Shown here: positions 49,401 to 64,000 of the stretch, piece after piece
Layout of the letters: every line of letters starts with the position of its first letter
How positions within the stretch are numbered: the stretch's first letter is position 1
DNA from: Verrucomicrobiia bacterium
GTDB taxonomy: Bacteria; Verrucomicrobiota; Verrucomicrobiia; Limisphaerales; Pedosphaeraceae
Assembly (NCBI GenBank): GCA_036268055.1
Contig: DATAUW010000036.1
Span: 1-64,000 of the forward strand
Direction of reading: 5' to 3'
DNA length: 64,000 nucleotides
Position numbers and translations under genes: made by a program
The notes under the pieces: generated by a model
Seen by the model: the letters and a program-made list of their open reading frames with translations, nothing else
Told to the model about the DNA's origin: nothing
Databases searched by the model: none

Positions 49401-49412
49401 ACTTTGTTACCA

Positions 49413-59019: not shown

Positions 59020-60174
59020 CTATATGACTTTCCGCACGCATTCGGGCCATTCGTAGCTGCCGGGCTTGAGGGTGAAACGCACATTTCGCGGGCCGTCAAC
59101 CAAGGTGCTCACAACGCCGAGGGCCAGTTCCCGTTCAATCGCAAGCCGCCCCCATCCCAGGCGGCGCGCCAGGGCAGCGGCGGTTTCGCCGCCTTCGGCA
59201 TACACGTTATCCACGGATGAAGCGGCAAGCACGCGTTCCGCGAGCCGCACTAAATTCTCCGCGAGCGAACGGGCGATGGCGATGTCCCGCACGAGCGGCA
59301 AACCGATTTTTAAAATGACGCGCCGTTCGTTTTTCAACGCGTGAATCGCGCCCGCAGCAATGGGTTCCATATCCGCCAAATCGAATGGTGCGCCGGCAAT
59401 GAGTTTTTTGGGCAACGAAAATATCGTTGCGCCGGATTGCGCCGCCGCTTCGCAAAATAATCGTGATGATTCGCTGGTGCTGCCGCACACGAATAATTCC
59501 GCGCCTCGTTTTTCTTCGCGCGAACTTTCACAAGGTTCGACAGCTTTGCGCAATCCTTTCATCGCGAGCAATGCGCCGAAAAATTCCGCCGCGCCCGCCG
59601 GTAGAATGTTCTCGTTTACCTGCGATGCCCAGGCGCGCAGATCTTCCGCAGTTTCGGCTTCGCCGACGAGGATGCCGTTTTCTGTTAGTGGCTCACCGAG
59701 TTTGCGCATCTGTGCCGCGTCCAGGCTTAGGAGTTTATTTACGACGGACGAAGTTCGTGGATGGTGTGGGTCATGCGCAAATTCGGTTTCGTGCAATAAT
59801 TTTCCGCGCACAAAATAATTTCCGCCGCGAATGATGCGGCCGAGCGAAGGATTCACGGGCACGAGTAGCGCGTGCGGCAAATTGAGTTCCGACATGATCG
59901 CCTGCACTTCGGCAGTCACCTGGCCGCGCAGCACGGAGTCCACTTTTTTATAAATCGACGCTGCGCCCGCATCGCGCAAAGTCCGCGCTGCGTTGCGCGC
60001 GCGGGCGGCGGATTCCGTGGGATCACATCCGCGCGAATGGGTATCCACGCAAACCAAATCGGCCGTGGCATCGCAACGTCCATTCAAGAGGATTTCCGCG
60101 CGCAGGCCGTGGCGCCAGCCGACGGCGGCCAGTTCCGCCGCGCCTGATAAATCGTCTGCGATCACGCCAATCAT
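59020..60174 (-). CDS. Four-carbon acid sugar kinase family protein (DUF1537)
   Basis: From ATG 60174, 384 residues. The N-terminal IADDLSGAAELA block and the KKVDSVLRGQV are of the DUF1537/OtnK type; the C-terminal ATP-binding half has AEGGETAAALARRLG and a final KPGSY. The family phosphorylates erythronate or threonate-like acids for entry into central metabolism (family knowledge). Its usual partner PdxA2-like dehydrogenase is absent here, so the substrate is unresolved. Confidence 0.87.
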   Translation of the reverse strand: MIGVIADDLSGAAELAAVGWRHGLRAEILLNGRCDATADLVCVDTHSRGCDPTESAARARNAARTLRDAGAASIYKKVDSVLRGQVTAEVQAIMSELNLPHALLVPVNPSLGRIIRGGNYFVRGKLLHETEFAHDPHHPRTSSVVNKLLSLDAAQMRKLGEPLTENGILVGEAETAEDLRAWASQVNENILPAGAAEFFGALLAMKGLRKAVEPCESSREEKRGAELFVCGSTSESSRLFCEAAAQSGATIFSLPKKLIAGAPFDLADMEPIAAGAIHALKNERRVILKIGLPLVRDIAIARSLAENLVRLAERVLAASSVDNVYAEGGETAAALARRLGWGRLAIERELALGVVSTLVDGPRNVRFTLKPGSYEWPECVRKVI

Positions 60175-60288
60175 AGTCAAAGGAAGTTCAAATGATGGGA
60201 AGGCCGTGGATCGTCACGGCTACTTTTGTTCCCCGAGAAATAAAAAGCTCACACTTGCCGTTCACATCCTACCTGATAAAATACCTGT

Positions 60289-61528: not shown

Positions 61529-62407
61529 ATGAATTTAGGCTGCCTCGTGGACAAAGGGTCATTCAGCGCGATCAGCGCAGCGCGAGCCCGCGCCTTCATG
61601 GAGGCGCCGCTGCCTCGCTCGTACACGGATTATCTCGGGCATCGCCTCTTCCGGTTGTTGCTCACGGTCCAGGGGTTGCTGGCGTTTGCGCTCATCACGC
61701 TCGGGGTGATTTTGACGAAAATGAATGTCGCGCAAAGCGTGACGTTCCCGCTGATCTTTCGCGAGATGAAACGGTCGGGCATGGACTTGATTCCGTTGTT
61801 TTTGTTCATGTCGGCGGCGCTGGGTTTCGCGACGATTGGCCAGGCGGTCACGCTGCTTTCGCAATACGGCGCGACGTCTTATCTCGGCACGATCATGGTG
61901 GCGGTGGTGGTGCGCGAACTGGGCCCGCTTTTCACGGCGATGCTGGTGCTCTCGCGGTCGGGCACGGCCAATGTCATCGAACTCGGCACGGCACGTTCGC
62001 AAGGCGAAGTCGAGGCGCTCGAAGCGCTGGGCGTTGATCCGATTCATTATCTGGTGATGCCGCGCGTGATCGGCATGGCGCTCGGGGTTTTTGCGCTCTC
62101 GATTTATTTCATCATGGGCGCGTTGCTAACCGGTTATCTGTGGGCGTTTTTACAAAACGTCCCGCTGCAACCGGGAGAATATTTCCGCCAGCTTAGCGCG
62201 GCGCTGACGAGCCTGGATTTTGCGATTCTCGCGGTGAAGTCCTCGGCGTTTGGCGTGAGCATTGCCGTCATCACGTGTTATCACGGGCTGTCGCGGCCGC
62301 TGCAACTGGAGGAAGTTTCCCGCGCGACCATCGGCGCGGTGGCGCAGTGCATCATCGCCTGCGTGGTCATTGACGTGATTTTCATTTTCGTTTACCGCAC
62401 GCTCTAA
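61529..62407 (+). CDS. MlaE-type permease of a lipid ABC transporter
   Basis: A 292-residue permease (ATG 61598 gives 269 and is possible). About five hydrophobic segments and the MlaE pattern: FRLLLTVQGLLAF, FATIGQAVTLLSQYGA, VVVRELGPLFTAML and RSGTANVIELGTA, the last being the well-conserved E-L-G-T region. The Mla system moves phospholipid between outer and inner membrane (family knowledge). The stop overlaps the next start by one base. Confidence 0.92.
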   Translation: MNLGCLVDKGSFSAISAARARAFMEAPLPRSYTDYLGHRLFRLLLTVQGLLAFALITLGVILTKMNVAQSVTFPLIFREMKRSGMDLIPLFLFMSAALGFATIGQAVTLLSQYGATSYLGTIMVAVVVRELGPLFTAMLVLSRSGTANVIELGTARSQGEVEALEALGVDPIHYLVMPRVIGMALGVFALSIYFIMGALLTGYLWAFLQNVPLQPGEYFRQLSAALTSLDFAILAVKSSAFGVSIAVITCYHGLSRPLQLEEVSRATIGAVAQCIIACVVIDVIFIFVYRTL

Positions 62408-63195
62408 TGGAAAACCCACCCGCCAATTCCAGTTCGCCGGTCATCGAAATGAACGAGGTCGCGTTCGGCACGTTGCAGGACGTGGAACGCGTGGTGATGG
62501 AGAATGTGAATTGGAAAGTCGCGCCGGGCGAATATTGGGTGGTCGGAGGCATGCATGGCTCGGGCAAGCGCGATTTGATTTCATTGACCGCGGGACTGAT
62601 GCCGCCTTTGCGCGGGACGTATCGTTTGTTTGGTTCTGAGATGCCGCTTTACGGCGACGAACAACTTGCCCAGCGTCTGCGCCTTGGGATGGTTTTTGAT
62701 AACGGCAATCTGTTGCATCAACTCAACGTGCACGAAAATCTGGCGCTGCCGTTGCGGTATCATCGCGACCTGGGCTGGCAGGAAATCGAGGAACGCGTGA
62801 AGACGATGCTGGAGCTGGCGGAGTTGACGCCGTTTGAAAAAACGATGCCCGGCGCGCTGGATCATCATTGGCAGAAACGCGCCGGGCTGGCGCGAGCGCT
62901 GATGCTTGAGCCGGAGGTGCTGCTCGTGGACCATGCGTTGAGCGGCTTGGATTTTCGCCAGTCGAATTGGTTCCTGAAATTTTTCGACCAGCTTTCCGCC
63001 GGGCATGAGTTTTGCCAGAAACGCCCGATGACATTGATTGCGACCGCGGAGGATTTGCGGCCGTGGCGCAACCCGCATTGTCATTTCGCGTTTGTAAAAG
63101 AGAAACAGTTATTCACCGTGGGCCATCGCCCGCAGTTGACCTGTCATCCCGAACCGCTCGTGAAGGAACTGCTCGCGGAACCTTTCACTACTTGA
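62407..63195 (+). CDS. MlaF-like ABC subunit with degenerate ATPase motifs
   Basis: A 262-residue ABC-fold protein placed between MlaE-like and MCE genes. Its motifs are abnormal: Walker A reads GMHGSGKR (the Ser/Thr is Arg55, although Lys54 stays), the Q-loop Gln is Asp98 (VFDNG), the signature is LDHHW at 151-155 in place of LSGGQ, Walker B reads VDHA (Glu is His176) and the H-loop His is Ala214 (ATAED). Overall fold (LARALMLEP, SGLDF) is recognisable. It may bind nucleotide poorly and not hydrolyse it. Confidence 0.88.
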   Translation: MENPPANSSSPVIEMNEVAFGTLQDVERVVMENVNWKVAPGEYWVVGGMHGSGKRDLISLTAGLMPPLRGTYRLFGSEMPLYGDEQLAQRLRLGMVFDNGNLLHQLNVHENLALPLRYHRDLGWQEIEERVKTMLELAELTPFEKTMPGALDHHWQKRAGLARALMLEPEVLLVDHALSGLDFRQSNWFLKFFDQLSAGHEFCQKRPMTLIATAEDLRPWRNPHCHFAFVKEKQLFTVGHRPQLTCHPEPLVKELLAEPFTT

Positions 63196-63199
63196 ATTT

Positions 63200-64000
63200 A
63201 TGCCACTGCAAGACCTCACACCCCAACTTCGCACCCGCTTGAACCGCATGGAACGCGGTGTCGGCTGGTTCATTCTGATCGCGACGGTGCTGTTGATTTT
63301 TGGTTTCGGCTATTACATCTACAATGCCGCCAAGCAGCGCGGCTGGTTCAAGGCGAAGGCGCCGTTTTATACTTATGTGCAAAGTGGCGCGGGCATTGCC
63401 ATCGGTGATCCGGTGTGGCTGATGGGATTTGACGCAGGGCGGATCACGAAGATCATTCCTGAAAGTCCGAAATGGGGCGAAGTGACTTCCAACAATGTGT
63501 ATATCGAATTTGAAGTGGTCGAGCCAAACTTTGGTTATATCTGGACTGAAGGTTCGCACGTGGAATTCAATAGTTCGGGCTTCCTCGGCAAACGCGAATT
63601 GGACATCACCAAAGGTTCCAAGGGTCATGCCACTTATATTCGCCAGGCGTTGCGCGATGACTTGACCGCGACCGAGGCACAGGCGCTGCCGGATTTGAAA
63701 AATTGGAAGCTAGGTGAAGAAATCCTGGACGGGACGAATTTGGTCAGCTCGCCGTGGCAGACGCTGACGCCGGAATTGCTCACCAAGGCGGAGGCGGTGC
63801 TGGGAACCAAACATATTCATATCATTGATACGAATAGCATTTCCCGGCATATCACGGCGGTTTGGAATCCCAGCAAGCATTACTACGAACATTTTCATCA
63901 TACGAATATCTATGGCCTGGAACGCAACGAACAGATTGCGTTGAACGATCGTTTGCAGACCATGGTTGCCCAAATCCAGGCGGCGATGCCAAGCTTTTTG
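63200..64000 (+). CDS. MCE/MlaD-domain protein, truncated by window end
   Basis: The open frame starts at ATG 63200, 4 nt after the mlaF stop, and runs 267 codons to the window edge with no stop. An N-terminal anchor (about 23-44) is followed by the MCE domain (about 55-145; AGIAIGDPVWLMGFDAGRIT core shortened to GDPVWLMGFDAG, and a later SSGFLGKRELDITKG reduced to GFLGKRELDI). MlaD-like proteins form rings that shuttle lipids with the permease. The remaining part beyond 64000 is not visible. Confidence 0.92.
   Translation, partial: MPLQDLTPQLRTRLNRMERGVGWFILIATVLLIFGFGYYIYNAAKQRGWFKAKAPFYTYVQSGAGIAIGDPVWLMGFDAGRITKIIPESPKWGEVTSNNVYIEFEVVEPNFGYIWTEGSHVEFNSSGFLGKRELDITKGSKGHATYIRQALRDDLTATEAQALPDLKNWKLGEEILDGTNLVSSPWQTLTPELLTKAEAVLGTKHIHIIDTNSISRHITAVWNPSKHYYEHFHHTNIYGLERNEQIALNDRLQTMVAQIQAAMPSFL

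Follow-up and report, generated by a model that had tools for sequence, protein, structure and literature searches.

How does an Mla-type lipid transporter operate when the ATPase subunit encoded in its operon has lost the motifs for hydrolysis? This question is raised by a locus at the right edge of the window analysed here, a stretch of 64,000 nucleotides of contig DATAUW010000036.1 from a Verrucomicrobiia bacterium of the order Limisphaerales. Hydrolysis of ATP by MlaF is considered indispensable for Mla transport, and opinions differ as to whether MCE systems act as lipid pumps or as mere conduits, and as to the direction of transport. The original prediction, made from the letters alone, described the ABC ATPase of an Mce/Mla operon as apparently dead and offered three options: transport runs without hydrolysis by this subunit, another ATPase substitutes for it, or the subunit is regulatory.

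The E*-F*-D* operon

Three genes, encoding a permease (E*), an ATPase subunit (F*) and an MCE protein (D*), form an operon on the forward strand:

61529..62407, + strand: E*, MlaE-family permease of 292 aa (PF02405, 172 bits; cut-off 22.5)
61994..62059, + strand: residues 156-177 of E*, the coupling-helix region between TM2 and TM3 as aligned to solved MlaE, predicted site of ATPase docking
62407..63195, + strand: F*, degenerate MlaF-type ATPase subunit of 262 aa (PF00005, 60.6 bits)
63200..64000, + strand: D*, MlaD-like MCE protein of 435 aa, of which the first 267 lie in the window, continuing to contig position 64507

The F* reading frame is full-length and overlaps the stop of the E* gene, and the operon is intact. 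E* was matched to solved MlaE structures and keeps R129, E130, K237 and D282, the counterparts of Arg97, Glu98, Lys205 and Asp250 in E. coli MlaE. D* scored 26.3 bits against PF02470, barely above the cut-off of 25.1. Its AF2 model comprises a membrane helix (residues 8-47), the MCE domain with an extra beta domain, and two long helices at 248-309 and 323-393 (about 62 and 71 residues) that are predicted with low confidence. Foldseek matched D* to MlaD and Mce1 proteins, the top match being Mce1 at a low TM score. The predicted shape is compatible with a transenvelope MCE bridge, as proposed for the long MlaD of Veillonella, and MlaD proteins of the PVC group lack the outer-membrane barrel of the Veillonella protein (PMC10665443). 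No fourth conserved operon gene was found in the compared loci, where the other recurrent reading frames were antisense to E-F-D, and the operon encodes no second ATPase. Upstream in the window, a reading frame on the reverse strand (59020-60180) resembles by eye a four-carbon acid sugar kinase.

Catalytic motifs and predicted fold of F*

The positions of the ATPase motifs in F* were assigned by alignment, and their states in the window protein are listed together with those in the 152 distinct sequences of the F* family described below:

62548..62574, + strand: Walker A region GMHGSGKRD, with Lys54 retained and Arg in place of Ser/Thr55
62698..62700, + strand: Q-loop position, Asp98 (acidic in 107/152 family members)
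62857..62871, + strand: signature position, LDHHW (canonical LSGG[QM]); SGG in 0/152, first G replaced by Arg in 107/152
62917..62937, + strand: end of Walker B, VLLVDHA, with Asp175 retained and His176 in place of the catalytic Glu
63046..63054, + strand: H-loop position, A-E-D (canonical T-H-D); Asp/Glu in 109/152, His in 5

Arg55, Asp98, LDHHW and His176 are all as the original prediction had read them. Loss of the H-loop His was borne out as well, although alignment to intact MlaF, which pairs THD with AED, places this position at Glu215 and not at the neighbouring Ala214. An ABC ATPase elsewhere in the window (at 49404), previously credited with every motif, does have an intact Walker A, signature, Walker B and H-loop, but its Q-loop position is Glu (LPEE).

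AF2 modelled F* with a pLDDT of 94.8, and the rank-1 PDB match of the model in Foldseek was MlaF of the MlaFEDB complex (6xbd_I, TM 0.85). Against the NCBIfam equivalog for MlaF (NF008809), F* scored 80.9 bits, below the curated cut-off of 441. As judged from sequence and model, F* is a protein that keeps the MlaF-type ABC fold but lacks the catalytic motifs of an ATPase.

Distribution and conservation of the F* family

Orthologs of F* were found in 138 of 167 Limisphaerales genomes, counting genomes at least 90% complete and matches of at least 200 bits; one further carrier (G035) scored 176 bits, below this threshold. Among the 97 genomes searched first, 74 carried F*, the window genome included. 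The profile was calibrated on the window genome itself, in which paralogous ABC ATPases reached at most 158 bits, compared with at least 257 bits for these first 74 members. A scan from an 11-sequence alignment returned, as named carriers, Pedosphaera and other genomes of Verrucomicrobia subdivision 3 / Limisphaerales. The gene order E-F-D is kept in nearly all loci, and the E*-F*-D* operon also occurs in two families of the same class beyond Limisphaerales (f145 and f146). In one genome (G588, locus L285, about 1789-2714) E* and F* lie some 930 bases apart, compared with tight spacing elsewhere. The Limisphaerales-type operon also occurs in public MAG records (L133, L145, L146 and L155) that bear the names Klebsiella pneumoniae or Akkermansia muciniphila and are probably misnamed.

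The 152 sequences largely retain the P-loop and the Walker B Asp (Lys54 in 144, Ser/Thr55 in 149, Asp in 151), whereas the residues for hydrolysis are lost: the catalytic Glu position is Glu in 7 and Asn in 107, and the Q-loop position is Gln in only 5. With the Q-loop Gln, SGG, the catalytic Glu and the H-loop His taken as four canonical features, one is kept in 17 sequences and two or more in none. The recurrence of the same losses across all 152 members argues for more than chance. Values of dN/dS between 0.05 and 0.20 in 12 species pairs reveal purifying selection, which indicates that the F* genes are not pseudogenes. The term "dead" used in the original prediction is therefore better replaced by loss of the hydrolysis motifs, since most relatives keep the P-loop. 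Sister species, in which intact motifs would have spoken against that prediction, turned out to share the losses; what it had missed is that F* is an order-wide family under selection and not a peculiarity of the window genome.

Local decay, a pseudogene or a sequencing error in the window genome could in principle account for some of the substitutions. Arg55 (CGC), His176 (CAT) and Ala177 (GCG) are unusual in the family, Arg55 being unique to the window protein, and a change of one base in each of these codons would give the family-consensus residue. However, the reading frame is full-length, the operon is intact, the same losses occur in 151 other sequences, and relatives yield the dN/dS values given above. 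We regard such an artefact as scarcely credible for the window genome; for the family as a whole, sequencing error and pseudogene formation were rejected on account of the shared losses and the dN/dS values.

The consistency of the substitutions also suggests another possibility, namely that a rewired active site of F* hydrolyses ATP, with the signature Arg153 acting in trans like an arginine finger together with acidic residues at the Q-loop and H-loop positions. An acidic residue 98 (107/152), Arg153 (107), Asn176 (107) and an acidic residue 215 (109) recur alongside the retained P-loop. Covariation among these positions was nevertheless unconvincing (p 0.015, uncorrected, for the acidic residue 98 with Arg153; the other pairs not significant), and Arg153, Asn176 and Ser/Thr55 are all missing from the window protein. 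Since, in addition, the homologous F2 and F3 subunits lack the P-loop entirely and F* can be deleted, as it has been in the genus g307 (both described below), catalysis by a rewired site appears quite improbable.

Other MlaE-MCE operons in the genome and the phylum

The original prediction had called for a search for a second MlaF-like ATPase in the genome. Two were found, both intact (LSGGM, DEP and SH/TH), in two further MlaEFD operons that are themselves intact, on contigs C2 (L061) and C25 (L360). Across the order, 162 of 167 genomes contain an MlaF-like match to the canonical protein at E<=1e-45, a threshold that by itself does not prove each match to be intact.

A second operon type of Limisphaerales, E2-D2, lacks the ATPase gene at eight loci (L345-L349, L352, L353 and L356) and a P-loop-less remnant, F2, in two others (L350 and L351). 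The E2 permeases without an adjacent ATPase retain much of the coupling helix, and members of this type may use an ATPase in trans. In other classes of Verrucomicrobiota, E*-like permeases adjoin conserved F3 subunits (L361-L370), which lack the P-loop but are still recognised by the F* profile and in most cases by PF00005. A partly degenerate ATPase in a further genome (G589, contig C25, L282:2375-3124, + strand) keeps the Q-loop Gln and the Walker B Glu and has lost the signature and the H-loop; it is possibly an intermediate.

A tree was built from 79 permease rows. A single branch with 100/100 support divides it, with every sampled permease that has an intact ATPase on one side and the E*, E2, E3 and G589 permeases, whose ATPases are degenerate or missing, on the other. 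The intact or lost state thus changes once on this tree, which, being unrooted, is compatible with a single origin of the loss rather than proof of it. The position of the G589 permease, on a long branch, is uncertain, and the permeases without F* were placed inside the F* family in a quick tree and as sister to it in a careful tree. Among the ATPases that were read in the genomes searched, no intact one was part of an E*-type operon.

Deletion of F* in the genus g307

Two genomes of the genus g307 (G607, 99% complete, and G599, 95% complete) encode D* directly after E* and lack F*. The locus is orthologous to the E*-F*-D* locus of sister genera in this family, both being preceded by the same Ppx/GppA gene, and the argument for a deletion rests on this gene synteny and not on the tree. 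As two genomes of a single genus, they represent one event of F* loss. Neither genome yielded an MlaE-family permease other than E* or any MlaF-type ATPase, the best MlaF-like matches being LSGGQ ATPases with generic scores.

In MlaE, the coupling helix mediates contact with MlaF (PMC7790496). Scored against the E* consensus, the core of this helix in the g307 permeases gave 8 matches out of 38, compared with 159 out of 200 in the rest (Fisher p 7.5e-12), and in G599 it contains a ten-residue gap. Sister genera with F* gave 89 out of 95. Both g307 permeases nevertheless retain the equivalents of E. coli MlaE Arg97, Glu98, Lys205 and Asp250. The core is conserved where F* is present and collapsed where it is absent, which suggests that the predicted docking site is constrained in the presence of F* and has decayed in its absence, while other parts of the permease have not.

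These genomes bear directly on the option that another ATPase substitutes, in the form that E*D* is driven in trans by an intact MlaF encoded in either of the two other MlaEFD operons, with F* as a regulatory competitor or an assembly factor. Such an arrangement could occur in the window genome, given its intact MlaF proteins on C2 and C25; the MlaF-like matches in 162 of the 167 genomes of the order are in line with it, the mycobacterial Mce1 and Mce4 systems share the unlinked ATPase MceG (PMC9947336), and the E2-D2 operons preserve a large part of the coupling helix although they lack an ATPase. It is unlikely to be general, however, since g307 has E*D* with a ruined coupling helix and no detectable MlaF-type ATPase and would need an unrelated one. 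F* is moreover conserved beside E* under purifying selection, and the coupling-helix sequence of E* is unlike that of canonical permeases. Overall we consider powering in trans unlikely. Of the three original options, transport without hydrolysis by F* is the best supported, and this support comes from the genus that deleted F*.

Discussion

E*F*D* shares with the MlaFEDB and MlaEFD systems of E. coli, Acinetobacter and Veillonella a PF02405 permease, the MlaF fold, an MCE protein and a compact operon, and the Veillonella system, too, is a minimal EFD set, whose MlaD is elongated (PMC10665443). Unlike MlaF, F* lacks the catalytic Glu, the signature, the Q-loop Gln and the H-loop His. MlaF of E. 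coli needs Lys47 and Glu170 to function, the K47A and E170Q variants failing to complement (PMC7367683), so that a change of the catalytic Glu would disable an ordinary Mla system. In mycobacteria, Mce1 and Mce4 lose stability when MceG carries Walker B mutations (PMC9947336). Given that a dead MlaF is non-functional in E. coli and that MceG mutants are destabilising, the way in which ATPase and permease are coupled would have had to change in the E*F*D* lineage. E170Q of E. coli MlaF retains about 20% of the ATPase activity (PMC7784689), and some activity of F* is accordingly compatible with its sequence.

Mce1 and Mce4 resemble E*F*D* in combining long MCE proteins with YrbE (MlaE-type) permeases, which come without their own ATPase. 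They differ in that their ATPase, MceG, is active and needed for both transport and stability (PMC9947336), whereas E*F*D* has its own degenerate subunit and g307 has no detected MlaF-type ATPase. PqiABC and LetAB are MCE conduits with no known ATPase as well, and for PqiA passive, PMF-driven and unidentified-ATPase modes have been considered; PqiA, however, has a fold of its own that is shared only with LetA (PMC10897342), whereas E* is a genuine ABC-type MlaE.

Heterodimeric ABC exporters such as TM287/288, TAP and CFTR have likewise lost the Walker B Glu at one site, often with changes in the H-loop, and ATP binding may persist there (PMC7756269). Degenerate sites being common among such proteins (PMC7756269) and intact MlaF being available in the genome, F* might pair with MlaF in a heterodimer that has one degenerate and one working site. 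In the exporters one of the two sites is active, whereas the sole ATPase gene of the E*F*D* operon is degenerate in all catalytic motifs and no partner ATPase is encoded beside it. With the signature lost besides the Walker B Glu, the H-loop and the Q-loop, each composite site would be short of a required element, and g307 has neither F* nor any MlaF that we could find. We consider a heterodimer very improbable. Related to Mla by its permease, fold and gene set but missing the defining ATPase motifs, E*F*D* is, on present sequence evidence, to be called not a standard Mla system but an Mla-like MCE transporter that has a putative pseudo-ATPase.

The explanation we favour, and hold to be probable, is that the E*F*D* operon encodes a lipid transporter of the Mla/MCE type that works without ATP hydrolysis, in which F* would be a pseudo-ATPase scaffold and lipid would move down its gradient. 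E* and the long D* would be retained as the lipid conduit, and F* would still dock on the coupling helix of E*. In most species F* probably still binds nucleotide, as the kept P-loop suggests, and it would serve as a structural or ATP-sensing scaffold and not as a motor, holding or gating the permease while lipid, the presumed substrate, flows passively along its own gradient. In the window species, where the Mg-coordinating Ser/Thr is gone as well, F* is likely purely structural. Several points count against ATP-independent transport. Most F* proteins strongly conserve the P-loop, which suggests that nucleotide still matters there; the coupling helix kept in large part by the E2 permeases suggests that certain members may depend on an ATPase in trans; and the case without F* is one lineage known from two genomes that are 95-99% complete.

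A broader and more tentative reading is that a single ancient MlaE-MCE lineage of Verrucomicrobiota may have turned an ABC pump into an ATP-independent lipid conduit, which would survive in graded states: F*, with the P-loop kept and hydrolysis lost; F2 and F3, with the P-loop lost; and g307, with the gene deleted and the docking helix lost. In the open-access literature searched, we found no description of a degenerate MlaF family in Verrucomicrobiota. If ATP-independent transport by this conserved MlaE-MCE lineage, with its non-catalytic or missing ATPase, is true, a permease and an MCE tunnel would be useful without a motor. The natural variants (F*, F2/F3 and no F) could then separate the roles of scaffold, gating and power stroke, and together they would represent a natural series of an ABC transporter shedding its motor.
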